64,000 nucleotides of DNA from Aureitalea sp. L0-47 (lineage in GTDB: Bacteria; Bacteroidota; Bacteroidia; Flavobacteriales; Flavobacteriaceae). Position numbers and translations under genes: made by a program. Location of the stretch: the NCBI RefSeq assembly GCF_026126405.1, contig NZ_JAFMTQ010000003.1:124001-188000 (forward strand), read 5' to 3'. The notes under the pieces are model-generated. The model made no database searches. It had not been told where the DNA came from and was given only the letters and a program-made list of their open reading frames with translations. Of this stretch, positions 37,440-52,758 are shown in pieces (position 1 is the stretch's first letter; every line of letters begins with the position of its first letter).

Positions 37440-38249
37440 TTATAGAAGCTTACTCATCTGTTGTTGCAGACCGGCAGCAGCTTCCCTGGCCTTCTCAGCG
37501 AAATCGAACTCACTGGAGGCATAAATGATCCCCCTGGAAGAATTAACCAGTAATCCCACCTGATCATTCATACCGTACTTGCAAACATCTTGTAAACTTC
37601 CACCTTGCGCTCCAACACCAGGAACCAGCAAGAAGCTTTCGGGAATGATCTTTCGTATCTCGGCCAGGTATTCGGCCTTGGTCGCGCCAACAACGTACAT
37701 TAGGCGATTAGAGTTCTCCCATTCTACCGATGTTTCCAGCACTCGTTTGTACAACTCAATACCTCCCACATCTAATGTCTGAAAATCGAAAGCCCCTTTG
37801 TTGGAGGTAAGCGCAAGCAATATAGTGTGCTTCTCTTCGTACTTCAGAAAAGGTTCTACAGAATCCGCTCCCATATACGGTGCCACAGTGATGCTGTCGA
37901 AATTCAATTCTTTCAGAAAAGCATGGGCATACATGTTTGAGGTATTCCCAATATCTCCTCGTTTTGCATCCGCGATAGTAAAAACCGTTGGGTACTCCTC
38001 ATTTAGGTAATCGATCGTCTTTTCAAGGGAGCGCCAACCTTTCAAGCCATAGGCCTCATAGAAAGCAGTATTAGGTTTGTAAGCAACCGCCAGGTCGTGT
38101 GTAGCATCGATGATCGCCTTATTGAACGCGAACATAGGGTCTTCGTCCTCAAGGAGAAAAGGAGGAATCTTGTTGAGATCCACATCCAAACCTACACAGA
38201 GAAAGGATTGTTTTTTTTTAATTTCAGAAACAAGTGTGTCTATCTTCAT
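37440..38249 (-). CDS. pyrF: Orotidine 5'-phosphate decarboxylase, type 2
   Basis: A 269-residue enzyme of the long (type 2) bacterial subfamily, making UMP from [19 protein letters not shown] opens it; the catalytic D-x-K-R-x-D-x motif is [19 protein letters not shown] and [12 protein letters not shown] form the phosphate site. Two bases downstream of prfA and the last gene of purM-prfA-pyrF. Confidence 0.95.
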
Positions 38250-40608: not shown

Positions 40609-40630
40609 AAAGCTCAGCGAACTGAGCTTT
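40609..40630 (-). terminator. Terminator of curli operon 1
   Basis: Stem AAAGCTCAG/CTGAGCTTT with CGAA tetraloop, followed on the minus strand by a run of seven T. It ends the six-gene operon that starts at 46222. Confidence 0.85.
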
Positions 40631-40653: not shown

Positions 40654-42147
40654 CTATTGCCAATCCGGCATAAAAGCATCCTCATGCCTAACCTCTCTCG
40701 TATCCTGGGTGTTAAGATCCAGGCGCAAGACATTTCTCTGAGAAAGACCGTCATTAGATGTGTTGGTAAAGATCACAAAGGCCTCATTTGGTGCAAAAAT
40801 TGGATCCAGATCTATAGTTCCAGCAGGTTTATTATCTGAAACATCGGTCGTTTCCATAGTGGACCTGTCGTAAATGAACAATCTCGTATCTAATTGTCGG
40901 TAGTCTTCATTCTCAAATCCAGACACATCATAGGAGTAAAGAATCTTTTGGTCGTCTATGGATAGGTCTAGACCTCCTACTGCACCATCCACTCCATCTA
41001 TTACCGTGTCGATCACGGTTCCGGCTTCATTAATGGTGAAGATCTTCGCATCGTATCCCTGTAGATTATTAGTCTTCAATACAATGAGGTCACTGGTTTC
41101 ACTTACTACTACTTCAGATATAAGCGACCCGTCTGGTGTTTGATACAATTCCACTGTTCCCAAACCGTTGAATTGAACTCGATAAAGCTTATCGAATCTA
41201 GGGTAGTAAATACTTACCCTGTCTTCAGGCCAGTCGATATCAAGTTCTTCAAGGTTGAAACCATTGGGTTTTACGGGCCCGGTTATCTTTCGTTTGTTCG
41301 ATCCATCCCTGTCCATTATAAAGATATCCACGTTGGATCCGTCATTTTGTAGATAGGCAATCTTGTTAGCCCGGACATTTCTGCGCGGACGGTAACTGTT
41401 CACTTCGGAAGAAGTAAGTTGAAATTCATCACCGTTCTCATCGGCGGAGAATATCACATTATTACCGTTGATCTTGCGCACGAAGAGAACTCGGTTGTCA
41501 ACAGGTGCCGCAATTACTTCGAACGCACTAACCGGGCTAATCACCGGATCATTGATCTCGTCGGTCGCGGTTACTTGCCACACATATGAAGTTCCCAATG
41601 TCAACGGAGAATACGTAAGAGTGGTATCCGTTAAATTCTCAAATAACATCGTTTCATTGGTGTCCACATTTCTTAATTCAAGGGTATATATTATCGGATC
41701 ACCTTCAGGATCTGTTGAATTCCAACTAAACATCGCTTCGATACTTTGCAGGACTTCATTGTCCATAGGAGTTATGAGCTCCGGTGCCGAAGGTGGCCTG
41801 TTGTTAGCCGTAGACGGATCTAATTCGAAAACTACATTAGAAGAAACATTTCCATTGATAGTTGCAGGTTCAAAATCGGCGATATAACCTTCTTTTCTCG
41901 CTTCCACCGAATATTCACCCACCACGATATTTTCAATAATAAATGTTCCCGATGAATCTGTAAATACAGTACTCGAAACAGGGTTGGTGGAAATCCGAAC
42001 ATTCTCCAGAGGCGCATTGGATCCGGAAACCACTACTTTACCCGTAAGTGTTCCAAATTCATTCTCCCCGATTTTATCCTCATTACAGGAATACACCAGA
42101 AGAAATGCTAATGAAACGAACGCGATATATTGTAAACTCCTTTTCAT
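40654..42147 (-). CDS. Curli-operon lipoprotein: carboxypeptidase-regulatory + FnIII + TolB-like propeller (copy 1)
   Basis: A 497-residue lipoprotein (LAFLLVYSC). Residues about 33-110 form a carboxypeptidase-regulatory-like beta sandwich (GKVVVSGSNAPLENVRIS); about 115-215 an FnIII-like domain (PEGDPIIYTLELRN ... YVWQVTATDE); about 220-497 WD40/TolB-like PD40 repeats (VLFVRKINGNNVIFSADENG, KIAYLQNDGSNVDIFIMDRD). Last gene of curli operon 1; a close paralogue of equal length occupies the same place in operon 2. Curli operons of proteobacteria lack it. A role in fibre anchoring, nucleation or assembly at the surface is inferred from position only. Confidence 0.85.
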   Translation of the reverse strand: MKRSLQYIAFVSLAFLLVYSCNEDKIGENEFGTLTGKVVVSGSNAPLENVRISTNPVSSTVFTDSSGTFIIENIVVGEYSVEARKEGYIADFEPATINGNVSSNVVFELDPSTANNRPPSAPELITPMDNEVLQSIEAMFSWNSTDPEGDPIIYTLELRNVDTNETMLFENLTDTTLTYSPLTLGTSYVWQVTATDEINDPVISPVSAFEVIAAPVDNRVLFVRKINGNNVIFSADENGDEFQLTSSEVNSYRPRRNVRANKIAYLQNDGSNVDIFIMDRDGSNKRKITGPVKPNGFNLEELDIDWPEDRVSIYYPRFDKLYRVQFNGLGTVELYQTPDGSLISEVVVSETSDLIVLKTNNLQGYDAKIFTINEAGTVIDTVIDGVDGAVGGLDLSIDDQKILYSYDVSGFENEDYRQLDTRLFIYDRSTMETTDVSDNKPAGTIDLDPIFAPNEAFVIFTNTSNDGLSQRNVLRLDLNTQDTREVRHEDAFMPDWQ

Positions 42148-42153
42148 AATTCG

Positions 42154-43569
42154 CTACTTATCTTTTTTAGTCTTTAGTTTAGTTTTTTTCGAACCGAAGT
42201 GATAGTTAATACCGGCCGAAAAAGTAAAGAAGAAATCGTCTCTCCTTCCGCGAACCTCATTATCGATCTCGTCGGAAAAAGAAGGGTTCCAGTCTCCCTT
42301 GGCAATAAATGAAATCCGGTCGGTCACCTGGTATTCAAGTCCGGCCCCAGCCTTCATAAAGAAGTAGGTATCCATTCTCTCAAGTAGGCCATCCGGTGCT
42401 TCATCCACAAAAAGCATTACTCCCGGTCCCGCATACAGGAAGGGTGATAGCTTATCATGTGGTAAAAGATTGTATTCCAGCGTTGCTGCTTCAGAAACCC
42501 ACCAGTGGCGTGTTGTGGTATTTGAGTTTAAACGGAAAAAATTCGTAGTAAGTCCCAAACTGAAGTTAGGGATAAACCTGTACTTGTATCCAAGTTCGAA
42601 GTTATGATCCACTTCATTTGTGTTGAAATCACCATCCACATAAGCTACACCGTATGAAGCATGTGCTGAGTGACGATAATCGTGATCCTGGAACTCTCTT
42701 TCGTACAATTCTGTGCTAGCTTCGAGTTCTTTCTCCAGAAGGTACTGCTCCACGATTTCCTTGTCTTTCTCCGGACCTTCAAGAGTAACCCAAAGTTGAT
42801 CTTTGATACCCTCATAGATAAGAACCTCAACTGCTTTTTCGATAGCTTCCTGCACTGCCAGCTGCGTGGGTTCATTTTTAGTAAAACCTGTTTCAGCTTC
42901 GAGAAGTCGTTGAAAATTCACAAATCTGAATATTCCTACATCTACGGCCTGTGAAAGTATTGTTTTTGAAACGTTCACCGTCTTCAATATCTCTCCAGTC
43001 GATGTTGAAACCGCTCGCAGATAGATGGTTATTCTATCCTGGCGATACTGCGCAGACCCGCCAGTCCCAAAATAACGAGCTCCTACTCCACCGGTCATGA
43101 TGTTAGTATCGTAAGAAACGATACCACCTTCCAGTAAAATTCCCGCAAATAATAGCGGACTAAGACGCTGGGCTCTTTGTTCGTCCTCTCTAAGATATTC
43201 CTGTCGAGTGGTTCGAATGATATTACGTTCATTAAGAAGGTTGGCAAAACTCTCCCTTTCAATAGGTTTAAACCATTTTGAATCTTCAAGGGCTTTGATA
43301 AGGATAGTGGTTGCCCCTTGTGTTACAGCTGTACTAAACGTACTCCCTGCCTCAATATTTTTATACTGACCCGTTTGATCTTTGAAGTTATAAACTCCCA
43401 CCACGATAGGTTTATCCGGTGGCGGCAGTTCCAGCAATCGTTCGGTGGAAGAGGTATTTTCAGCAATCCTGGCCTCCTGATTCCCAGTGGGCTGGTTATA
43501 GTATGCTCCGCAACCGGTTAAAAGCAGGAACGCGAGCATAACACTCAATTTACCTGTAATGTATCTCAT
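42154..43569 (-). CDS. csgG: CsgG-type curli secretion channel with C-terminal barrel-like extension (copy 1)
   Basis: Outer-membrane lipoprotein (LLLTGC) of 471 residues. About residues 50-285 match CsgG: VVGVYNFKDQTGQYKN, GATTILIKALEDSKWFKPIER, LLNERNIIRTTRQEY and LLFAGILLEGGIVSYDTN. E. coli CsgG is about 277 residues; here about 170 extra residues (about 300-471) show the alternating pattern of an eight-stranded OmpA/OmpW-like barrel (HNFELGYKYRFIPNFSLGLT ... GINYHFGSK). The channel exports curlin subunits; the extra barrel is unexplained. Four bases upstream of csgF, seven from the accessory gene. Confidence 0.93.
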   Translation of the reverse strand: MRYITGKLSVMLAFLLLTGCGAYYNQPTGNQEARIAENTSSTERLLELPPPDKPIVVGVYNFKDQTGQYKNIEAGSTFSTAVTQGATTILIKALEDSKWFKPIERESFANLLNERNIIRTTRQEYLREDEQRAQRLSPLLFAGILLEGGIVSYDTNIMTGGVGARYFGTGGSAQYRQDRITIYLRAVSTSTGEILKTVNVSKTILSQAVDVGIFRFVNFQRLLEAETGFTKNEPTQLAVQEAIEKAVEVLIYEGIKDQLWVTLEGPEKDKEIVEQYLLEKELEASTELYEREFQDHDYRHSAHASYGVAYVDGDFNTNEVDHNFELGYKYRFIPNFSLGLTTNFFRLNSNTTTRHWWVSEAATLEYNLLPHDKLSPFLYAGPGVMLFVDEAPDGLLERMDTYFFMKAGAGLEYQVTDRISFIAKGDWNPSFSDEIDNEVRGRRDDFFFTFSAGINYHFGSKKTKLKTKKDK

Positions 43570-43572
43570 AAG

Positions 43573-43956
43573 TTATCCGTTTGGAATAATCACTTGGGTT
43601 TGTTCTCCTGTTGTAATGTCCAGGACATTAATAACCAATCCTTCAGTGGATTCAAAAACTTCATATTCGAAATTTCCGCTTCTTGAAGTTCCTAAAGGAG
43701 GGTTATCTCCCCCGAACTGATTGTTGAATTGGTTGTTGAGAAGATTATCGAGATCGTTCAAGTCGCTTAAGCCTTCCAGTCCCCCGATCGCATTATCCGA
43801 AAACGGATTCTGTGCATTGGCTGAATTCAACATCCATGTATAGTTGAAAGGATCACCTCCGAATGCAGGATTCTTTGGAGTATAGGTAAGCTGCTGTGCC
43901 ATACCATAAGACCCGATCGAAAGAAACACAATTAATACTGTTAGTCTCATAATCAA
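43573..43956 (-). CDS. csgF: CsgF-type curli assembly protein (copy 1)
   Basis: Exported protein of 127 residues. The CsgF hallmark QLTYTPKNPAFGGDPFNYTW directly follows the signal peptide, then an Asn-rich stretch (NAQNPFSDN, LLNNQFNNQFGGDN) and the C-terminal YEVFESTEGLVINVLD and GEQTQVIIPNG. CsgF plugs the CsgG pore and guides subunits to the nucleator. Start could be ATG 43956 or 43950. Spacing to csgE and csgG is three to four bases. Confidence 0.92.
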   Translation of the reverse strand: MIMRLTVLIVFLSIGSYGMAQQLTYTPKNPAFGGDPFNYTWMLNSANAQNPFSDNAIGGLEGLSDLNDLDNLLNNQFNNQFGGDNPPLGTSRSGNFEYEVFESTEGLVINVLDITTGEQTQVIIPNG

Positions 43957-43960
43957 TATT

Positions 43961-44737
43961 TTAATACTGTCTTACTATGTTCTTTTGTTTTTCCAGATTA
44001 TTAAAGTAGGCTATCGTGCGTCGTACCGCCATCTCAGCCATGCCCTTAATATAATCATTCTGGGGTCTTACAAAAAATTCAAGGATGATCTCATCTCCAA
44101 CTAGCACCTCTATTTTGGTGTTATTAGCGATGGCAAGAACCTCCTTCACTGTAACTATTTTGGACCCATTTATATTATAATATGTATAACCGGTATAATA
44201 TTCTTTATAGAAATCGCTACCCGGCTTGGTTTTGGTATCTTCCAGAACAATTCCCCTTAATTCCACACCGTCACTAGCTGCAAATTCATCGCGTACGTCG
44301 TTGTCTTGCTTTGGTTTAAGGACAATTTTTTTCTCTTCTGAATCATCATTCAAAACGACACGGTCTTTACCCAACAATTGATCTTCCAGGTTGTACACCA
44401 GCAGAAGTACGATCATCCTGGATTGGTCCTGATTACTAATAGTAGTATTGGAAAGTTTTTTCTTCTCACCTGTTTGAAGAACAAAGCGATTGCTTTGCTC
44501 GTTCTTGGATTTGTTTCCGGAAGGATCGGTTCTGAATACGGTGAAGATATATCGCAAACTTTGGCTGATCCGCGTTTTATTGTAGGCGTAAGCCGAAACA
44601 TTCATGAATTCGGAATTACCGGTAATTTTGATCTCAGCTTCGATCTGGGTGTTGTACACCTGACCTTGAATTGAAGTAGTGAAAATTGAGATCAAAAAAA
44701 CCAACATACTCTGTAGTATGTGATCTTTTTTAAACAT
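43961..44737 (-). CDS. csgE: CsgE-type chaperone with N-terminal CsgH-like domain (copy 1)
   Basis: Exported protein of 258 residues, about twice the length of E. coli CsgE (129). Residues about 155-258 match CsgE: VLEDTKTKPGSDFYKEYYTG, SKIVTVKEVLAIANNTKIEV, FFVRPQNDYIKGMAEMAVRR. Residues about 28-135 form a separate Ig-like beta domain (YAYNKTRISQSLRYIFTVFR, NEQSNRFVLQTGEKKKLS) whose pattern resembles CsgH/CsgC amyloid inhibitors. CsgE caps CsgG and selects curlins. The ATG overlaps the csgB stop by one base. Confidence 0.88.
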   Translation of the reverse strand: MFKKDHILQSMLVFLISIFTTSIQGQVYNTQIEAEIKITGNSEFMNVSAYAYNKTRISQSLRYIFTVFRTDPSGNKSKNEQSNRFVLQTGEKKKLSNTTISNQDQSRMIVLLLVYNLEDQLLGKDRVVLNDDSEEKKIVLKPKQDNDVRDEFAASDGVELRGIVLEDTKTKPGSDFYKEYYTGYTYYNINGSKIVTVKEVLAIANNTKIEVLVGDEIILEFFVRPQNDYIKGMAEMAVRRTIAYFNNLEKQKNIVRQY

Positions 44738-45267
44738 TACTGTCTCTTAACGTTTCGTATGATAACCGTTTGGTTATTGCCGCGCATATTTATTTTCATT
44801 CTATCCGACATCGAATTACTACCTATTACATATAGTTCCTGATTCGATCCATTCTGAACCACTCGACCACTGTGAAACAGTTGTGCGCTGGTCCCTATAT
44901 CGTAAAATACGTTATTAAATCCACGTTGCAAAATTTGTTCGTCTATACCAACGGCTTCTAGATCCAAATAGGCTTCATTATTGTTCCCAAACTGAAAAGC
45001 CGAAACGTTGCTGACTGCAGAACGCAATTCCGCTTGAAAGGCATTGTTGTTACCAATTTGGCGAACAAATACATCATTAGATACCGAATTTGCTTGAGGA
45101 GTACTGTTTTGTAAGAATTGAGATGTGTAAAGATTGATCTCCTGGACCTTGCTTCCTACCGCAGTCCTTGGAGTAATCTCCACGTTTTTATAAGTCTGAC
45201 CCATGGTCAGTGATACCATCGTGAAGGTAAGTAACGCAAAAAGGAGTATGCTGTTACGTATTTTCAT
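44737..45267 (-). CDS. csgB: CsgB-like minor curlin/nucleator (copy 1)
   Basis: Exported protein of 176 residues with a signal peptide (LLFALLTFTMVSLTMGQ). After a non-repetitive N-terminus it has about five imperfect curlin repeats, e.g. DVFVRQIGNNNAFQAELR, SNVSAFQFGNNNEAYL, EQILQRGFNNVFYD, GRVVQNGSNQELYV. It ends in the basic VIIRNVKRQ, reminiscent of the surface-retaining C-terminal repeat of E. coli CsgB. Between csgA and csgB lie 124 bases containing a strong hairpin. Confidence 0.85.
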   Translation of the reverse strand: MKIRNSILLFALLTFTMVSLTMGQTYKNVEITPRTAVGSKVQEINLYTSQFLQNSTPQANSVSNDVFVRQIGNNNAFQAELRSAVSNVSAFQFGNNNEAYLDLEAVGIDEQILQRGFNNVFYDIGTSAQLFHSGRVVQNGSNQELYVIGSNSMSDRMKINMRGNNQTVIIRNVKRQ

Positions 45268-45346
45268 ATCAACTTAGTTAGGTTTATGTTGATGCCCCGG
45301 TTTCCCAAGGCTGAAATATTTAATACAAAATCACTTTTAAAAGAGG

Positions 45347-45379
45347 AATTTACAGGGGTGCGAAACACCCCCGTAAATT
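45347..45379 (-). terminator. Hairpin between csgA1 and csgB1 (attenuator)
   Basis: 14-bp stem with one mismatch (AATTTACAGGGGTG/CACCCCCGTAAATT), loop CGAAA. Minus-strand flank CTCTTTTAAAAG is only moderately T-rich, so partial termination or mRNA end protection is likely. Confidence 0.65.
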
Positions 45380-45391
45380 ACCTAAAGCTTA

Positions 45392-46222
45392 TTATAGTCC
45401 TCCACCATTATGTTGGTTAACGATAGAAGTGTTTCCTGCACCAAACTGAGTAACTGTACTCATGTGTCCAAGACCGTGCTGATGCGTGTAACTAAAGTTG
45501 TAAAGTCCAACTTGTAGTACATCAGAGTCATTGTAGCGTCCGTACTGCTCGGTCCAAGCTCCGTTTCTGTATCCCAGTTGAAGAACATCAGAATCGTTAC
45601 TCTTACCATGCTGATCTGTTACTGTCCAGTTCTGAACTCCAAACTGAAGTGTAGTAGAAGTATTCTTTCTTCCTAACTGATGTGTCCAAGCATAGTTATC
45701 TACACCAATTTGAAGGGCATAAGAATCATTCTTTCTTCCTTCCTGAAGAGTCCAAACAGTGTTGTCTTTTCCAACCTGCACCGCGTCCGCATCATTTTTT
45801 CTTCCTCTCTGGATGATGTCTGCTTCGTTACGTTTTCCTCTTTGGTAAACATTTGCATCGTTACGACGACCGATTTGGTCTACTCGAGAATCATTCTTCT
45901 TTCCTTTCTGGTCTACGTTAGAAATGTTGCCTATTCCAATTTGAGTTGTAACAGACTTGTTCTTTTTTCCACGTTGAAGAACATCAGACTCGTTACCAGC
46001 ACCAAGCTGAGCAACATAAGAATCATTCTTTTTTCCGTACTGGTCTACATCAGAATCGTTGAAGAAACCAATTTGGTTGGCGTCAGAATCATTCATGTAA
46101 CCAACCTGGTTAACATCAGAGTAGTTTCCAACTCCTAATTGTACAACGTCACTGTCGTTGTATTGAGCGAACCCAACAGTTGCGAATAATAGTGCCGCAG
46201 CACCTAAAATCACTTTTTTCAT
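45392..46222 (-). CDS. csgA: Major curlin CsgA-like, basic-loop variant
   Basis: Exported amyloid subunit of 276 residues. Signal peptide MKKVILGAAALLFATVGFAQ, then about 22-23 tandem repeats of an 11-residue half-unit N-D-S-x-V-x-Q-x-G-x-x, each with Ser/Asn...Gln-x-Gly as in curlin repeats. Central units (about 4-15) have Lys/Arg-rich turns (GKKNDS, GRRNDA, GKRNEA). By eye the mature part has about 26 Lys/Arg and 29 Asp/Glu. The C-terminus (GLYNFSYTHQHGLG ... NTSIVNQHNGGGL) is shared with the other curlin. First gene of operon 1. Confidence 0.92.
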   Translation of the reverse strand: MKKVILGAAALLFATVGFAQYNDSDVVQLGVGNYSDVNQVGYMNDSDANQIGFFNDSDVDQYGKKNDSYVAQLGAGNESDVLQRGKKNKSVTTQIGIGNISNVDQKGKKNDSRVDQIGRRNDANVYQRGKRNEADIIQRGRKNDADAVQVGKDNTVWTLQEGRKNDSYALQIGVDNYAWTHQLGRKNTSTTLQFGVQNWTVTDQHGKSNDSDVLQLGYRNGAWTEQYGRYNDSDVLQVGLYNFSYTHQHGLGHMSTVTQFGAGNTSIVNQHNGGGL

Positions 46223-46496
46223 AATTTAAAAAATTTAGAGGTTATATATTGATTAATAAAAAAGTTCAGTATTTCAATTGCAATATTAGTTGACAACTCC
46301 TACATAGAAGTTAAAACAACGTATTACTAACGTTAAATATCAGGGGATAAATTTCAATCTGGCAGTTATTTTACTAACTTTCCAGATAATCGGAACCAGA
46401 ACTTCGGAGATAAGTTATAAGTGAGATTCGGGGGCTCATTTTTTAACTTGGTCTGTTTTAAACCTAAAAAATCTTTTGGAGGAGTAATGCTTGATT

Positions 46497-46629
46497 AATT
46501 AGGATAGTCAAATATCTCCATTATATAAGTCATATGAAATACGAGTATATACGTATATTTCTCAAAATCAGTAATTTGTACTATTTTTCCTACAAGTTTT
46601 GAGAGTGTTATCGGACGACTATCCTAATT
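46497..46629. repeat. 13-bp perfect inverted repeats flanking a 107-bp segment
   Basis: AATTAGGATAGTC at 46497-46509 is matched exactly by GACTATCCTAATT at 46617-46629. The segment between contains the promoter-like sequence at 46563-46595 directed at csgA1. The layout is that of a phase-variable invertible promoter, or alternatively a large regulatory stem. Confidence 0.55.
46544..46595 (-). promoter_or_regulatory. Promoter-like sequence of csgA1, conserved with csgA2
   Basis: Minus strand: TTG (46595-46593), 22 bases, TGATTTTG (46570-46563; one mismatch to TANNTTTG), then AGAAATATACGTATATAC. The same order and sequence occur upstream of csgA2 (52582-52635). A start here would give a leader of about 330 bases. 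Confidence 0.45.
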
Positions 46630-46695
46630 CAACCGCCAAATCACTTAGTATTCAAGGATTTCCATAAATGTTAAATTTATGTTAAGTACTTTTAA

Positions 46696-46715
46696 TTCCG
46701 AAAACGTTTTCGGAA
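46696..46715. promoter_or_regulatory. 20-bp perfect palindrome, operator-like
   Basis: TTCCGAAAACGTTTTCGGAA, a perfect dyad with central CG as in LacI-family operators. It lies 474 bases upstream of csgA1. A related split dyad TCCGAAAC/GTTTCGGA (52626-52657) lies upstream of csgA2. No LacI-type regulator is encoded in the window. Confidence 0.5.
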
Positions 46716-46807
46716 ATCGATAAAAGTATACCGTTAATCTGTCTTTTCTGTATGTCCAGGAAGCGCACATCATAGCTATTGTCTCGCCAAAAATCTAAAT
46801 AAAAGAA

Positions 46808-46827
46808 AAAGCCCGCCTAAGCGGGCT
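46808..46827 (-). terminator. Terminator of curli operon 2
   Basis: Stem AAGCCCGC/GCGGGCTT with CTAA loop, followed on the minus strand by TTTCTTTTATTT. It lies 20 bases past the last gene of operon 2. Confidence 0.85.
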
Positions 46828-46846
46828 TCTTTTTAAATAGGATTAT

Positions 46847-48340
46847 TTATTGCCAGTCCGGCATAAAGGCATCTTCGTGTATGACTTCTCTCGAATCCTG
46901 GTTAGCAGGATCCAAAAGCAGGACATCTCTCCGCGAAAGACCGTCATTAGATGTGTTGGTAAAGATAATAGACGCTTCATTCGGTGAGAATAAAGGATCT
47001 ATATCTATCGTTCCTTCAGGTTTATTATCGGAAACATCCGTTGTTTCCATAGTGGTCCTGTCGTAAACGAACAATCTGGTATCCAGTTGACGGTAGTCCT
47101 CATTCTCAAATCCGGACACATCATAGGAATAAAGTACCTTTTGATCATCTATAGAAAGGTCCAATCCTCCAACAGCTCCATCCACATCTTCTAAGACAGT
47201 ATCGATTACGGCCCCAGCTTCATTGATGAGATAGATCTTTGCATCGTAGCCTTGTAGATTATTGGTCTTCAATACGATCAGATCACTGGTTTCACTTACC
47301 ACTACCTGTGATATCAGAGATCCGTCCGGTGTTTGATACAATTCTACTGTACCTAAACCATTGTATTGAACTCGATAAAGCTTATCAAATCTGGGGTAGT
47401 AAATACTTACCCTGTCTTCAGGCCAGTCAATATCTATTTCTTCAAGATTGAAACCATTGGGTTTTACCGGTCCGGTTATCTTTCGTTTGTTCAGTCCGTC
47501 CCTATCCATTATATAAATATCAACGTTCGATCCATCATTTTGCAGATAGGCGATCTTGTTGGCCCGAACATTTCTACGCGGACGGTAACTGTTCACTTCG
47601 GAAGAAGTAAGTTGAAATTCTTCACCGTCTTCATCTGCCGAAAATATCACATTGTTATCATTGATCTTTCTAACGAACAATATCCTGTTATCCACCGGTG
47701 GCGGTGCAACTTCAAATGCGCTCAGCTCACTGGTCACTGGCACGTTGATGTCATCGGTGGCTGTAACTTGCCATACGTACTTGGTACCAAGCGTTAATGG
47801 AGAATAAGTCAATGTAGAATCGGTAATCTCTTCAAAGAGCGTCACTTCATTGTTATCCAAATTACGTAGTTCCAGAGTATAGGTAATAGGATCGTCCTCC
47901 GGATCCACAGATTCCCAGCTAAAGATCACTTCTATACCTTGCAGCACCTCATTATCTTCCGGAGTTAGCAGTTCCGGTGCTGATGGCGGCCTGTTATTAA
48001 AGGTAGAAACCAGTAACTCGAAGACCACAGTGGAAGTCCTGTTACCTTCAACGGTAGCCGGAGTGAAATCGGCCAGGTAGCCATCTTTTTTAGCTTCAAC
48101 GGCGTATTCACCTACCAATAGGGATTCAATAATAAAGTTTCCTGAACTATCTGTAAATACGGTACTGGAGACCGGATTGGTAGAGATCTTTGTATTAGGC
48201 AGCGGCTCATTAGAACCTGAAGCGACAACCTTGCCTTTCAGTGATCCAAATTCATTTTCATCGATCTTGTCTTCGTTACAAGAATATACAATAAGGAGCG
48301 ACGCTGCTATAAGGACTAAATATTTAAATATGTTTTTCAT
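46847..48340 (-). CDS. Curli-operon lipoprotein: carboxypeptidase-regulatory + FnIII + TolB-like propeller (copy 2)
   Basis: A 497-residue paralogue of the protein at 40654-42147 with the same domains and lipobox (SLLIVYSC). Amino acid identity is high throughout and very high in the propeller; for example 54 of 60 bases agree between 41221-41280 and 47414-47473. Differences concentrate in the signal peptide, the FnIII-like domain and the final residues. It ends operon 2, 16 bases after csgG2. Conservation of the full-length gene in both operons argues that it belongs to the curli machinery. Confidence 0.85.
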   Translation of the reverse strand: MKNIFKYLVLIAASLLIVYSCNEDKIDENEFGSLKGKVVASGSNEPLPNTKISTNPVSSTVFTDSSGNFIIESLLVGEYAVEAKKDGYLADFTPATVEGNRTSTVVFELLVSTFNNRPPSAPELLTPEDNEVLQGIEVIFSWESVDPEDDPITYTLELRNLDNNEVTLFEEITDSTLTYSPLTLGTKYVWQVTATDDINVPVTSELSAFEVAPPPVDNRILFVRKINDNNVIFSADEDGEEFQLTSSEVNSYRPRRNVRANKIAYLQNDGSNVDIYIMDRDGLNKRKITGPVKPNGFNLEEIDIDWPEDRVSIYYPRFDKLYRVQYNGLGTVELYQTPDGSLISQVVVSETSDLIVLKTNNLQGYDAKIYLINEAGAVIDTVLEDVDGAVGGLDLSIDDQKVLYSYDVSGFENEDYRQLDTRLFVYDRTTMETTDVSDNKPEGTIDIDPLFSPNEASIIFTNTSNDGLSRRDVLLLDPANQDSREVIHEDAFMPDWQ

Positions 48341-48356
48341 GATTCTTTCCTCTTAA

Positions 48357-49757
48357 TTAGCGTGTATTCTTCTTACTCGTACCGAAATGAAAGTTTAAAC
48401 CTCCTGCAAATGTGAAGAAGTAATCATCCCTTCGGCCACGTATCTCATTGTCAATTTTATCGGTAAATGTTGGGTTCCAGTCACCTTTCAGAACAAAAGA
48501 TATTTTATCTGAAACCACATACTCGAGTCCTGCTCCTAATTTCAGGGTTAGGAAGGTATCCCCGTTCTGTAAATACATCCCGTCCGATTCGTCCGTGAAA
48601 TACATATACCCTCCTCCCGCATAAGCAAACGGTGTTAACCTGTCATGAGGCAGAACGGTATATTCTGCGAAAAGTGCATGGTTCAACCACCAGTGATTAG
48701 TATCATTGGTAGAATTCAGCCTGAAGAATTGATTGGTCAATCCTATACTAAATCGATCTACGATCTTGAACTTATAGCCCAATTCGAAATTATAATCCAG
48801 GATTCCGGAAGTGTAATCACCATCAACCAGCGCTAAGCCGGCAGAGACATTAAGTGTATGACGGTGATCATTTTTGAGGTATCTCCTATCGTAAAGGCTC
48901 GTATTAGCTTCCAATTCTTTCTCGAGTTCAAATGCTGAAATAATCTCTGCATCTTTTTCGGGACCATCCTTGGTCTTCCAGAGCTGATCTTTGATACCTT
49001 CCAGGATGAGTTGTTCCACTGCTTTTTCAATGGCCTCCTGAACTGCAAGCTGAGTAGGTTCGTTTTTAGTGAAGCCTGTTTCTGCTTCCAGCAGTCGTTG
49101 AAATTTCACATATCGGAAAATCCCGACGTCAACCGCCTGGGAAAGTATGGTCTTGGATACATTTACTGTCTTAATAATTTCACCTGTGGAAGTTGAAACC
49201 GCTCGAAGATAAATAGTGATTCGGTCCTGGCGGTATTGAGATGATCCTCCAGCTCCGAAATAACGCGCTCCTACCCCACCGGTAAGGACATTGGTATCGT
49301 ACGATATTATTCCGCCTTCTAAAAGGATACCCGCGAACAACAAGGGACTAAGCTTCTGTGCCTGTGCATCCTCTGTATTCAGGTATTCCTGCCGGGTCGT
49401 CCTAATGATATTCCGTTCGTTCAATAGATTTCCGAAGTTCTCTCTTTCTATGGGAGTGAACCATTTGGAATCCTCTAGTGCTTTGATAAGAATGGTAGTC
49501 GCACCTTGTGTTACAGCCGTACTAAACGTACTTCCGTTCTCGATGTTCTTGTATTGCCCTGTTTGATCTTTGAAATTGTAAACCCCTACAACGATAAGTT
49601 TTTCGGGTTCAGGCAGATTGAAAAGTTTTTCGGTTTGTTTTGTTGTTTCTGCGATTCTTGCATCTTCATTTATAATGGGTTGGTTAAAATATGCACCACA
49701 ACCGCTTAAAACCACAAACCAAGCCAGAATAACTAATTTGGTTATAAGTGGTCTCAT
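48357..49757 (-). CDS. csgG: CsgG-type curli secretion channel with C-terminal barrel-like extension (copy 2)
   Basis: A 466-residue lipoprotein (FVVLSGC). The CsgG domain (about 50-285) is almost the same as in copy 1 (YNFKDQTGQYKNIENGSTFS, LLNERNIIRTTRQEYL), while the C-terminal barrel-like domain (about 300-466) is less alike but ends in the same GDWNPTFTDKIDNEIRGRRD pattern. Four bases separate it from csgF2. Two channels with well-conserved pores but divergent barrels suggest parallel secretion units rather than a decayed copy. Confidence 0.93.
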   Translation of the reverse strand: MRPLITKLVILAWFVVLSGCGAYFNQPIINEDARIAETTKQTEKLFNLPEPEKLIVVGVYNFKDQTGQYKNIENGSTFSTAVTQGATTILIKALEDSKWFTPIERENFGNLLNERNIIRTTRQEYLNTEDAQAQKLSPLLFAGILLEGGIISYDTNVLTGGVGARYFGAGGSSQYRQDRITIYLRAVSTSTGEIIKTVNVSKTILSQAVDVGIFRYVKFQRLLEAETGFTKNEPTQLAVQEAIEKAVEQLILEGIKDQLWKTKDGPEKDAEIISAFELEKELEANTSLYDRRYLKNDHRHTLNVSAGLALVDGDYTSGILDYNFELGYKFKIVDRFSIGLTNQFFRLNSTNDTNHWWLNHALFAEYTVLPHDRLTPFAYAGGGYMYFTDESDGMYLQNGDTFLTLKLGAGLEYVVSDKISFVLKGDWNPTFTDKIDNEIRGRRDDYFFTFAGGLNFHFGTSKKNTR

Positions 49758-49761
49758 AATA

Positions 49762-50136
49762 TTATCCGTTTGGAATGATTATTTGTGTCTGTTCACCCGT
49801 GAGGATGTCCAGAACATTGATCACCAATCCTTCTACGGATTCGAATACTTCATATTCGAAGTTGCCGCTTCGGGAGGTTCCTAGCTCGGGAACACCTGTT
49901 CCAAATTGATTCTGAAACTGATTGTTCAGCAAATTGTCCAATCCGGTCAATTCATCGAATCCCTGTAGTCCCAGTTGATCATCTGAAAACGGGTTCTGGG
50001 CGTTGGCCGAATTAAGCATCCACGTATAGTTGAAAGGATCTCCGCCAAAAGCGGGATTCTTCGGGGTATACGTGAGTTGTTGGGCATATCCGTAAACGCT
50101 CATACCAAGCATCAGTAAATACATCACATGTTTCAT
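49762..50136 (-). CDS. csgF: CsgF-type curli assembly protein (copy 2)
   Basis: A 124-residue exported protein with the same QLTYTPKNPAFGGDPFNYTW segment after the signal peptide (LMLGMSVYGYAQ) and the same C-terminus (GEQTQIIIPNG) as copy 1. The variable middle (DDQLGLQGFDELTGLDNLL) is three residues shorter. Intact frame. Confidence 0.92.
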   Translation of the reverse strand: MKHVMYLLMLGMSVYGYAQQLTYTPKNPAFGGDPFNYTWMLNSANAQNPFSDDQLGLQGFDELTGLDNLLNNQFQNQFGTGVPELGTSRSGNFEYEVFESVEGLVINVLDILTGEQTQIIIPNG

Positions 50137-50146
50137 AAGCCCTTTG

Positions 50147-50923
50147 TTAAAAATGTTTAATCATATCTTCTTCCTTCTTAAGTCTTTCGAAATACCCCAT
50201 CGTTCTCCGGATGGCTTCGTAAGACATGGCTTTCAAATAGTCGTTGCTGGGTTGCACCAGGAACGCCATTACAGTGTCATCGTCAACGATCAATTCTATA
50301 GCGGTGTTATTCCCTATGGTTAGCACCTCTTTGACCGTGACTATTTTGGGGCCGTTGATATTATTAGCCAGGTAACTGGTATAGTAATATTGATAGAAGT
50401 CCCTACCGGGTTTGGTCTTGGTGTCTTCAAGCACAATCCCTCTAAGAATCACCCCGTCGTTTTCCAGGTATATACCTTTGATTTCTTCTATTTCTTCTTG
50501 TGATATTGCTCCTTCTTTGTTTTCATCACTGTCGTTTAAGACGATTCTGTCTTTCCCTAACAATTTATCTTCCAGATCGTAAACGAGTAACAGGATGATG
50601 ATTCTCTTTTCTTCGGAAACATTTAGAACGGTACTGGCCAATTCACGTTTTTCACCAGGTTTCAGGACAAACCTGCCGGTTTGGTCAGATTTGGAGTGGT
50701 TATTGGATTCAATTTCATTGCTTATTACAGATAGGATGTAACGCAAACTGTGATTCAACATTGTTTTGTTAAAGGCGAATGCTGTGATGGAGATGAATTC
50801 GGTATTGGGCTCCATAACGATTTCTGCCTCGATCTCGCTATTATAGATCTGGGCACAAATCGCGTCGGTTTGCATCAACTGTAGACAGAGCGCAGTAAAT
50901 AATATAAATACTGCTTTTCTCAT
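50147..50923 (-). CDS. csgE: CsgE-type chaperone with N-terminal CsgH-like domain (copy 2)
   Basis: A 258-residue exported protein, equal in length to copy 1. The CsgE half (about 155-258; VLEDTKTKPGRDFYQYYYTS, PKIVTVKEVLTIGNNTAIEL) is close to copy 1. The N-terminal Ig-like half (FAFNKTMLNHSLRYILSVIS, DQTGRFVLKPGEKRELAS) is more divergent but keeps the framework. The linker between the halves (about 135-155) is acidic and variable. Confidence 0.88.
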   Translation of the reverse strand: MRKAVFILFTALCLQLMQTDAICAQIYNSEIEAEIVMEPNTEFISITAFAFNKTMLNHSLRYILSVISNEIESNNHSKSDQTGRFVLKPGEKRELASTVLNVSEEKRIIILLLVYDLEDKLLGKDRIVLNDSDENKEGAISQEEIEEIKGIYLENDGVILRGIVLEDTKTKPGRDFYQYYYTSYLANNINGPKIVTVKEVLTIGNNTAIELIVDDDTVMAFLVQPSNDYLKAMSYEAIRRTMGYFERLKKEEDMIKHF

Positions 50924-50927
50924 TACT

Positions 50928-51455
50928 TTAATTCCTTTTTATATTTCGTATAATCACTGTTTGATTGTTTCCTGTCATGTAGACCCGAATCCGTTCTGAA
51001 AGTGAATTGCTACCTATATTAAATAGTCTTTGATTATTCCCTTTCTGGTAGTACAGACCCTGATGGGTCCTTTTGAGAGTGTTTCCCATATCGTAAAGAA
51101 CATTGCCGTTGCCCTGTTGAAAAATCAACTCATTTATATTTACGGCACTTCTTTGCAGATATGCATCATTTTTACTTCCCTGCTGAACGAATCCAACATT
51201 TGAGAAGACACTCCTGATATCGGCCCTGGCCATATTGTCCAAACCAACTTGCCGTATATAAACATTCCTAGAGCTAAGATGTTGAGAAGACCTCTTATAA
51301 TCCAGGAATTGGGCTGTATACGGACTAAAAGGAAGCACATGGCTATTCGCCGAATTTCGAGGCCTGATCTCTAAATTCTTATAGGTCTGGCCCATCATGC
51401 ATCCGAAAAAGCTCATTAACAGAAGTACAATACCAATATGGATATTAACTTTCAT
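50928..51455 (-). CDS. csgB: CsgB-like minor curlin/nucleator (copy 2)
   Basis: A 175-residue exported protein aligning with copy 1 over its whole length (QTYKNLEIRPRNSANSHV ... TGNNQTVIIRNIKRN). About five degenerate curlin repeats, e.g. NVYIRQVGLDNMARADIR, NVGFVQQGSKNDAYLQ, ELIFQQGNGNVLYDMG. Preceded by a terminator-like hairpin after csgA2, so it would be reached by read-through. Confidence 0.85.
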   Translation of the reverse strand: MKVNIHIGIVLLLMSFFGCMMGQTYKNLEIRPRNSANSHVLPFSPYTAQFLDYKRSSQHLSSRNVYIRQVGLDNMARADIRSVFSNVGFVQQGSKNDAYLQRSAVNINELIFQQGNGNVLYDMGNTLKRTHQGLYYQKGNNQRLFNIGSNSLSERIRVYMTGNNQTVIIRNIKRN

Positions 51456-51481
51456 AATTTATATGGTCTTTAAAAGAAAAA

Positions 51482-51522
51482 AGTAGTGCACAAGTGATCT
51501 TGAGAGACCCTTGTACACTACT
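51482..51522 (-). terminator. Terminator between csgA2 and csgB2
   Basis: 13-bp stem with one mismatch (AGTAGTGCACAAG/CTTGTACACTACT), 15-nt loop, followed on the minus strand by TTTTTTCTTTT. A good intrinsic terminator placed between major and minor subunit genes. Confidence 0.75.
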
Positions 51523-51562
51523 CATCCTCACAGAAACTACTGTGACAATCTACCTAAGGACG

Positions 51563-52300
51563 TTAGAATCCTCCTCCTCCAGCATTATATTGATTAACAC
51601 TAGACGTGTTTCCAGCGCCAAGCTGTACAACGGTACTCATGTGACCTAGGCCTTCTTGGTGAACGTAGCTAAAGTTGTACAATCCAACTTGCAATACGTC
51701 TGAATCATTGATCACACCAAATTGTTCTGTCCATTGTCCATTACCCCATCCAATTTGCCATACATCGGAGTCGTTAACCCAGCCAAACTGACCTACTGCA
51801 CCCCAGTTTTCATGACCTAATTGAATTGAAGTAGAAGTATTACCAAATCCTTCTTGCCATACGCCTACTAAGTTGTCACCACCTAATTGTAGTGCGTAAG
51901 AGTCGTTAGCGTGAATGAACTGTCGAACATAGGCTTCGTTATCGTAGCCTAGCTGTACAACATCAGAGTCGTTGATCCAGCCATATTGTCCAACATCAGC
52001 TTTGTTAGTAACACCTAATTGGAAAACGAATGAGTCATTAAGCCATCCGATTTGTTCAACATCAGCATCGTTACCAGCACCTAACTGAACTACCAATGAT
52101 TGGTTGTCAATTCCTTCTTGGAACACTTTGGAATCATTTAATAATCCGAATTGTAGAACGTCGGAATCATTTATCCAACCAATTTGATCTACGTCGGAAT
52201 TGTTCATCATACCCACTTGGAGTACGTCACTGTCGTTAAATTGGGCGAACCCAACAGTCGCTACTAAGAGCGCAAGCAAACTTAACAATAACTTTTTCAT
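51563..52300 (-). CDS. csgA: Major curlin CsgA-like, acidic/hydrophobic variant
   Basis: Exported amyloid subunit of 245 residues from ATG 52300 (MKKLLLSLLALLVATVGFAQ); the in-frame extension upstream is rejected because it precedes this clear signal peptide. About 20 tandem 11-residue units N-D-S-D-V-x-Q-x-G-x-x follow, with Trp, Ile and Leu at turn positions (QIGWIND, QFGLLND). By eye the mature part has about 3 Lys/Arg against about 28 Asp/Glu, so it is strongly acidic, unlike the other curlin. The C-terminus (GLYNFSYVHQEGLGHMST) is shared. First gene of operon 2. Confidence 0.92.
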   Translation of the reverse strand: MKKLLLSLLALLVATVGFAQFNDSDVLQVGMMNNSDVDQIGWINDSDVLQFGLLNDSKVFQEGIDNQSLVVQLGAGNDADVEQIGWLNDSFVFQLGVTNKADVGQYGWINDSDVVQLGYDNEAYVRQFIHANDSYALQLGGDNLVGVWQEGFGNTSTSIQLGHENWGAVGQFGWVNDSDVWQIGWGNGQWTEQFGVINDSDVLQVGLYNFSYVHQEGLGHMSTVVQLGAGNTSSVNQYNAGGGGF

Positions 52301-52758
52301 GATATATATATTTAGAGGTCGTGATACGCATTTCAGCATATCGATTAAATTCACGTTCGATGCGTCGTGTAATTCCTGACGCATTATCCACGTCAAACAA
52401 GTGAAGAATTTGAATAGTAAAGCAGGCGTTATCTCTGCTATTGAAATCCATTTCGGCTCAAAGTCATTACAACTTATTTAACCTGGATGTTCAATCTTCT
52501 GATAATAGTTAGGAAGGAGTGAGATTCTATTATCAATTTGATACTTGAATATCGCAAAGAATACGCTAAAAAGCAATAAGCGTATACACGTATTTTCTTA
52601 CAAAAGCACGTAAAATATGGGAATGTCCGAAACAACCATAGATACTGACGTTTCGGAATATTGCCGCAAAATATTCAAAAGAAAGACTACTGAATAACCA
52701 TCAAAAGTTGATTTGTTAACGGCATTTTCAGAAGAATTAATAATGAATAACTACTCTT
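52301..52758. other. Upstream region of curli operon 2
   Basis: 458 bases without a gene. Contains two small hairpins in the presumed leader (52360-52384, ATGCGTC/GACGCAT; 52501-52534, GATAATAG/CTATTATC), the promoter-like sequence at 52582-52635, and the dyad at 52626-52657. No clear terminator for the GSIII gene was found in it. Confidence 0.6.
52582..52635 (-). promoter_or_regulatory. Promoter-like sequence of csgA2, conserved with csgA1
   Basis: Minus strand: TTG (52635-52633), 24 bases, TGCTTTTG (52608-52601), then TAAGAAAATACGTGTATAC. Matches the csgA1 sequence at 46544-46595 in content, order and distance to the gene (about 290 bases). Confidence 0.45.

Follow-up and report, generated by a model that had tools for sequence, protein, structure and literature searches.

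A stretch of 64,000 nucleotides (nt) from Aureitalea sp. L0-47 (assembly GCF_026126405.1, contig NZ_JAFMTQ010000003.1, positions 124,001 to 188,000), referred to here as the window, contains two complete curli operons in tandem. Twelve intact minus-strand open reading frames (ORFs) form two sets in the order csgA-csgB-csgE-csgF-csgG, each followed by a gene for a predicted lipoprotein, designated acc. The first-pass annotation had described twelve open genes in two six-gene sets of identical order, and this agrees with the ORFs, strand, and coordinates and with the Pfam names obtained for CsgG, CsgF, CsgE, and CsgA. Both sets are probably functional curli (type VIII, nucleation-precipitation) systems, which would give rise to two differently regulated fibers with partly shared parts. 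Computed support for this interpretation covers the gene content, the age of the pair, orthology, constraint, distinct upstream regions, homogenization of the last gene, and the pattern of loss among related species.

Judged by profile matches, both loci are curli (type VIII) gene sets. In sets 1 and 2, respectively, CsgG matched its Pfam family with 222.9 and 231.7 bits (cut-off, 20.8; E = 3.6e-66 and 7.1e-69), CsgF with 86.1 and 82.6 bits (cut-off, 25.8; E = 2.9e-24 and 3.7e-23), and CsgE with 41.8 and 39.6 bits (cut-off, 25; E = 1.5e-10 and 6.8e-10). A CsgE profile also matched the solved CsgE structure 2na4 (E = 8.4e-6). Curlin_rpt was detected in CsgA1 and CsgA2 with 111.3 and 79.7 bits (cut-off, 20.7; E = 2e-32 and 1.5e-22). 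The same family gave a match of 14.5 bits (E = 0.035) for csgB1 and none for csgB2; both genes encode three Q-x-G-x-x-N motifs and occupy the usual place in the operon. csgD was not present among the ORFs of either operon, an absence that does not bar curli membership.

The pair is the product of a tandem duplication of the six-gene flavobacterial operon inside one genus, as its phylogeny indicates. In the CsgG tree, for which 41 of 98 rows were used, the genus forms one clade (100/99) from which Pukyongia sp. BWSM_151 (locus L065) splits off first. Next, operon 2 of this genome and of its relative G398 forms one group (100/100) and the operon 1 copies from six genomes form another (99/94); the two groups are joined inside the genus (99/97). 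The csgB tree displays the same split (joined at 97/94), as does, more weakly, that of csgE (85/86). Approximately unbiased (AU) tests rejected the pairing of the two window copies for csgG (P = 3.3e-5), csgB (P = 2.9e-6), and csgE (P = 1.5e-4). The P values of all AU tests given here are weakened by the choice of groups after the trees were known. From these three trees it follows that the operon was duplicated within the genus, after one species had split off. The major subunit may have a longer history. csgA2 groups with the single csgA of BWSM_151 (95/93), and one clade of the genus csgA genes is rejected without that gene (p-AU = 0.0025), with P = 0.044 when it is included. Two types of csgA may therefore have existed before the operon was duplicated, bearing in mind that repeat proteins yield weak trees.

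The failure of csgA2 to group with csgA1, together with the long operon 2 stem in the CsgG, csgB, and csgE trees, would also fit an operon 2 acquired from a different lineage by transfer and not duplicated in place. We consider this very improbable: CsgG2 is sister to the operon 1 clade of the genus and lies inside the genus (97/95 in the AU test tree as well), and the site between the glutamine synthetase and purM-like genes is the standard one. A donor inside the genus is a possible variant of this explanation.

Paralog identity is lowest for csgB (45.7%), csgE (49.0%), and csgA (60.5%) and higher for csgG (70.2%), csgF (75.8%), and the lipoprotein (80.9%). Within CsgG, the two copies are 85% identical in the core and 57% in the C-terminal barrel, a region that evolves faster than the core in orthologs too (75 to 81% versus 92 to 93%). 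The subunits thus differ between the sets, as had been noted earlier. The proportion of synonymous differences (pS) between copies is 0.72 to 0.83 over the five csg genes, near or past saturation, and 0.64 in the lipoprotein gene, the second half of which is the exception (pS of 0.35 to 0.52 at amino acids [aa] 241 to 360 and 401 to 480). The duplication is therefore neither recent nor assembly-made. The window genome (3.38 Mb) is in 67 contigs, and a collapsed or duplicated assembly had been named in the first-pass annotation as a possible source of error. Such an assembly or binning artifact, in the form of a collapsed or chimeric contig, was rejected and has a negligible probability in view of the near-saturated divergence and of the same arrangement in G398 (JABDNT010000028.1). 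Searches of the window genome for CsgG and for curlin repeats returned only these two csgG and these two csgA genes.

Both operons are intact and constrained in this genome, as judged by the proportion of nonsynonymous differences (pN), which in each of the six genes is far smaller than pS. Compared with G398, pN is 0.10 to 0.29 and pS is 0.65 to 0.78 across operon 2; the corresponding ranges for operon 1 are 0.11 to 0.22 and 0.61 to 0.96. Ratios of nonsynonymous to synonymous substitution rates (dN/dS) are rough, because most dS values are close to saturation or beyond it.

Each operon is preceded by its own conserved block in the promoter region (Table 1), for which the best reading is that the two sets are differently regulated. 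For this comparison only 177 nt upstream were in view in G400, and the contig of G397 stops short of csgA. Both blocks contain variants of the inverted repeat TACGT-N6-ACGTA. The exact repeat was found upstream of 27 of 144 csgA genes, which belong to 19 of 89 loci; the loci in their entirety (1.815 Mb) have 29 copies. Repeats with other spacers occurred 0 or 1 times upstream of csgA. It should be noted that the motif was derived from the same data and that some loci are close relatives, so these counts are descriptive. The window genome has seven other exact palindromic sites and one with a mismatch; the reversed control pattern gave one match. A TACGT regulon was considered and rejected, the other sites being in or near unrelated genes (those for an HYR-domain surface protein, RF3, RuvB, a LacI-type regulator, a LuxR-type response regulator, and genes without a family). 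Sigma-70-type promoter-like sites were not enriched (30 found versus 35.6 ± 5.6 expected), and Rfam gave no match up to E = 1 between positions 38000 and 55500. Besides the inverted repeat, the long conserved leader 5' of csgA1 (46223 to 46535) carries several blocks that are invariant across four species.

To place the twin operons among relatives, we surveyed 94 distinct loci besides the window after removal of eight duplicates. The order csgA(s)-csgB-csgE-csgF-csgG-lipoprotein recurs across them, with exceptions such as L044, L104, L113, and L124, and many loci carry two to seven csgA genes with one csgEFG. All of the encoded CsgG proteins are 455 to 525 aa long, and the lipoprotein gene lies next to, and 3' of, csgG in all 96 copies examined that encode at least 300 aa. 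Curli had been described as normally occurring as one locus, and this holds in the samples searched. CsgG was matched in 100 of the 397 genomes that make up the family sample, 86 of them at E ≤ 1e-45, and two strong matches were present in 3 of these 86 (this genome, G284, and G359); G146 in that sample has one CsgG gene split over contigs. In the phylum sample, CsgF was matched in 51 of 392 genomes, of which 44 were strong (the remaining 7 have E values above 1e-6), and only this genome has two. A class-wide CsgE search, which was not used for copy number, agrees: of 396 genomes, 13 had a match, and this genome alone had two, apart from G737, in which two pieces of one frame were matched. UBA3611 (L078/G284) resembles the window in having a second csgA-B-(E)-F-G-acc set in tandem at the same site, its upstream copy being without csgE. 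G359 (L036 and L037) also has a second csg set, with the copies on two contigs that are broken inside acc. Both duplications are independent, as they form CsgG clades of their own (100/100 for UBA3611 and 100/99 for G359). Some part of the G359 acc copies may be similar, in which case additional operons beyond two could be hidden there; the comparable overlap, 91 aa of the N terminus, is only 82% identical.

Three of the proteins set these operons apart from the curli system of Escherichia coli. In the C terminus of CsgG2 (aa 300 to 458) an eight-stranded barrel was predicted, with predicted local distance difference test (pLDDT) scores of 74 to 95 by blocks and close similarity to OmpA and NspA. 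The core was poorly modeled as a monomer (68.3 for the whole model), and the top Foldseek matches were still solved CsgG structures. If CsgG is nonameric as in E. coli, nine small C-terminal barrels could ring the pore. The acc protein is made up of CarboxypepD_reg, an Fn3-like part below the Pfam cut-off, and a propeller. Its AlphaFold2 model (mean pLDDT, 90.6; predicted template modeling score [pTM], 0.75) was closest among solved structures to large eukaryotic propeller proteins (teneurin, ROS1, and Sevenless), followed by TolB (E = 1.7e-12; TM score by target, 0.54), and a sequence search for solved relatives returned weak matches to single beta domains and nothing more. Cys21 of acc is invariant in 51 aligned sequences and is followed by N-E-D, in keeping with a Bacteroidota surface-lipoprotein signal.

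In the third protein, the CsgE of these Flavobacteriaceae, a chaperone domain like CsgH/CsgC seems to be fused to CsgE. Among 56 homologs, the N-terminal domain matched CsgH in 40 (E ≤ 0.01; the best match had E = 1.3e-10) and CsgC in 8. The two window domains scored 25.2 and 25.9 bits against CsgH (curated cut-off, 35), and solved CsgC was matched by profile only at E = 1.8. Such a domain on CsgE would explain why csgC seems to be missing. It resembles the CsgH/CsgC of Taylor et al. (2016; PMC4838910), from which it differs in preceding CsgE and in falling below the curated CsgH cut-off. The available passages of that paper report a Bacteroidetes CsgH subfamily and mention no fusion; this subfamily may be the CsgE N-terminal domain. 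By the terms searched, the available text of PMC5135000 mentions neither Bacteroidetes nor a fusion. The CsgE proteins of L040 and L041 (398 and 395 aa) extend about 140 aa beyond most others.

From these parts the following mechanism can be proposed. CsgA and CsgB would enter the periplasm, where CsgE, through an N-terminal domain like the amyloid-inhibiting CsgH/CsgC, would keep the subunits unfolded and hand them to CsgG. CsgG and CsgF would then export them, CsgB and CsgF would nucleate the fiber at the surface, and the tail lipoprotein would hold the fiber or the channel at the outer membrane. With its own promoter, each set would produce a chemically different fiber, near neutral with CsgA1 (net charge, −3) and acidic with CsgA2 (−25). 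The machinery would be partly shared, in that gene conversion would keep the tail lipoproteins alike and the subunits of set 2 could persist with only the export genes of set 1. Expression, export, fiber formation, the role of the lipoprotein, and a functional difference between the sets are what we infer from the genes.

Several observations weigh against two distinct fiber systems, the first of them being the distribution of operon 2. CsgF is present in all seven species of the genus, whereas, counted by CsgF, the full second set is found in two (this genome and G398) and one set in the other five; for G397 and G400, in which contigs end near the locus, the count rests on the CsgF search. 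One of the five single-set species branched before the duplication, and loss or reduction of operon 2 therefore accounts for the other single-set species. Operon 2 is absent from the fully covered locus of G198, and in G399 it is reduced to an intact csgA2-csgB2 pair (L064/L142; L064:5357-6738) upstream of operon 1, with the operon 2 block kept. No csg protein matched the 604-nt gap after the G399 csgB2 better than E = 0.25, and the last ~500 nt of this gap match the operon 1 upstream region of this genome at 78%. The first-pass annotation had argued from the retention of every gene in both copies. All six genes are indeed intact and constrained here and in G398, but the genus as a whole does not retain the second set. 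Old paralogs that are always adjacent and do not differ in function had been named as a finding that would count against two systems; the paralogs proved to be old, and both are not always kept.

This distribution could mean that the duplicates are redundant, with operon 2 a dosage copy or drifting to loss without a distinct function, and its intactness a snapshot. The longer CsgG stem of operon 2 (0.24 versus 0.066 for operon 1) points the same way. We nevertheless regard redundancy as rather unlikely. Six genes have stayed open in two species that are near or past synonymous saturation, with pN well below pS; distinct upstream blocks have been kept; and G399 retained precisely the two subunit genes. 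The G399 arrangement suggests in turn that csgA2-csgB2 can outlive its own channel genes and that one channel can serve both subunit sets. It is quite possible, if short of probable, that the organism has one curli system with extra subunits, in which the second csgE, csgF, csgG, and acc matter little and CsgA2 and CsgB2 are exported by whichever channel is present. The loci with several csgA genes and one csgEFG, the extra operon of UBA3611 without csgE, and the seemingly greater age of the csgA2 lineage would all fit. Against it, csgE2 and csgG2 are intact and constrained here and in G398, and CsgG2 and CsgE2 form well-supported clades of their own. As this explanation overlaps with that of two functional, differently regulated sets, the confidences assigned to the readings do not add up to one. 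As a side observation, the csgA2-csgB2 pair of G399, alone beside operon 1, is a natural case of cargo without its channel.

The last gene also tells against full separation. The acc genes pair within genomes and not by operon (100/100 in G398 and 97/96 in this genome), and orthology of the operon 2 copies is rejected (p-AU = 3.6e-10). The history of the operons is still visible in the N-terminal half of the acc genes of this genome, with acc1 grouping with G399 (99/96) and acc2 with the G398 pair (95/89), and in the propeller half acc1 pairs with acc2 (99/98). Read plainly, acc appears to have been homogenized by gene conversion of the propeller. Homogenization of the last gene is seen in both two-operon species, this one and G398. 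The two lipoproteins of UBA3611, which arose by its own duplication, are not homogenized (65.5% identity; pS, 0.79), so the effect is not general. In two orthogonal systems all genes would descend separately; csgG, csgB, and csgE do and acc does not, and the two systems are thus not fully separate lines of descent. In addition, the csgF tree does not resolve the operon history (p-AU = 0.35).

Regulation and charge provide the remaining points of doubt. Neither window block matches the inverted repeat exactly (the operon 1 block has one mismatch and the operon 2 block two), and the second operon 1 csgA of G398 was found to have no such block upstream. A charge gap as large as that between CsgA1 and CsgA2 is found in 9.1% of random csgA pairs. 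In single-copy loci the charge of CsgB does not complement that of CsgA (n = 58; rho = +0.28; P = 0.03), and one of the two operon 1 CsgA proteins of G398 is nearly as acidic (−8.7 per 100 aa) as the operon 2 CsgA (−9.9). Oppositely charged fibers were considered as well; the cationic look of CsgA1 is contradicted by the count, which is near neutral, and the charge difference is kept only as a lead. The charge of the CsgH-like domain shows no consistent pattern with that of its own CsgA.

The earlier proposal of two parallel fiber systems in place of a decaying duplication thus stands in part. Intact and constrained genes, distinct upstream regions, and differing subunits speak for it, but the homogenized acc and the G399 csgA2-csgB2 without a channel of its own speak against complete independence, and the fibers themselves are predicted from sequence. 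A more specific version can be offered tentatively, as a possibility below even chance: two separately switched curli lines with amyloids of different charge would share one homogenized lipoprotein as a common anchor, conversion would keep this anchor uniform while the subunits, the channel barrel, and the CsgH-CsgE protein diverge, and operon-specific operator variants would time each fiber.

Compared with the E. coli curli system (csgBAC-csgDEFG), the window likewise encodes CsgG, CsgF, CsgE, a curlin-repeat CsgA, and a CsgB-like minor subunit. It differs in its single unidirectional operon without csgD or a separate csgC, in the addition of a C-terminal barrel to CsgG, a CsgH/CsgC-like domain to CsgE, and a tail lipoprotein, and in having the whole operon twice. 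According to the available passages of Dueholm et al. (2012; PMC3521004), Bacteroidetes curli loci are without csgC, csgD is absent in all genera but Spirosoma, and extra csgA/B copies often lie in additional operons, possibly under independent regulation; where that paper turns to multiple amyloid operons, it deals with curli together with Fap. The extra copies in those passages are of csgA/B and a complete second csgEFG is not described, whereas here it is complete. Excerpts of other papers describe curli operons as widespread in Bacteroidota (a 2025 genome screen; PMC12822426), report up to 30 CsgA copies per genome (PMC10192328), and name Flavobacteriaceae among csg carriers (PMC5745457). 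In the titles, abstract beginnings, and passages of the open PMC literature, we found no description of a complete second csg set. The second set looks like a rare two-fiber variant of the known curli system and not like a new system.

The coordinates of all features are given in Table 1. The twin operons sit between a type III glutamine synthetase gene upstream (GSIII_N Pfam match, E = 2.9e-76) and a purM-like gene downstream, an AIR-synthase family gene with a purM match under the cut-off (109 of 236 bits), which is followed by prfA and pyrF. The purM-like gene has relatives in view at 80 loci, and the glutamine synthetase gene at 68. Each set had been credited with its own terminator. A hairpin does follow each last gene, but the number of terminator-like hairpins in the window is not above that in shuffles (12 found versus 11.0 ± 3.9 expected), and the support for operon terminators is therefore their position alone, just 3' of each last gene. 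A further terminator-like hairpin of 15 pairs lies between csgA1 and csgB1 (45347 to 45379) and could be an attenuator; none is listed between csgA2 and csgB2.

Table 1. Genes and candidate regulatory features of the two curli operons, in window positions
Feature	Position	Strand	Description
Operon 2 promoter-region block	52574..52597	-	Invariant 24-nt sequence shared by 3 species in operon 2 (this genome, G399, G398); TACGT-N6-GCTTA at 52592-52577
csgA2	51563..52300	-	Curlin-repeat major subunit; 17 Q-x-G-x-x-N repeats; net -25 in 225 aa after signal; start is ATG 52300 (TTG 52396 is a mechanical ORF extension)
csgB2	50928..51455	-	Basic minor/nucleator-type subunit (+12 over 154 aa); identified from its operon position, orthology, and three Q-x-G-x-x-N motifs
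csgE2	50147..50923	-	CsgH/CsgC-like N-terminal domain (about aa 33-112) and CsgE domain (160-253)
csgF2	49762..50136	-	Pfam CsgF
csgG2	48357..49757	-	CsgG channel core (aa 49-262) and predicted C-terminal 8-stranded barrel (about aa 300-458)
acc2	46847..48340	-	Predicted lipoprotein: CarboxypepD_reg, Fn3-like, propeller; propeller half homogenized with acc1
Terminator-like hairpin 3' of operon 2	46806..46831	-	
Operon 1 promoter-region block	46534..46562	-	Invariant 29-nt sequence shared by 4 species in operon 1 (this genome, G399, G398, G198); TACGT-N6-TCGTA at 46555-46540
csgA1	45392..46222	-	Curlin-repeat major subunit with 21 repeats; close to neutral (net charge -3 over 255 aa, with 26 K/R)
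csgB1	44737..45267	-	Minor/nucleator-type subunit; Pfam match below cut-off
csgE1	43961..44737	-	CsgH/CsgC-like N-terminal domain (aa 35-113) and CsgE domain (160-253)
csgF1	43573..43950	-	ATG two codons inside mechanically listed TTG start
csgG1	42154..43569	-	CsgG core and C-terminal barrel (barrel by sequence similarity; fold predicted for csgG2)
acc1	40654..42147	-	Predicted lipoprotein: CarboxypepD_reg, Fn3-like, propeller
Terminator-like hairpin 3' of operon 1	40609..40630	-	T-tailed, both strands

Curli secretion has reportedly been studied mainly with one channel and one major subunit. The diverged and intact pair described here, together with its single-operon sisters and G399, forms a comparative set for the cargo specificity of CsgA, CsgE, and CsgG, and the same set bears on whether amyloid fibers can specialize like pili. 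A candidate sixth curli component is suggested by the concerted evolution seen in the tail lipoprotein, and for bacteria whose curli locus has no csgD, the TACGT-N6-ACGTA repeat offers a way into the regulation of curli.

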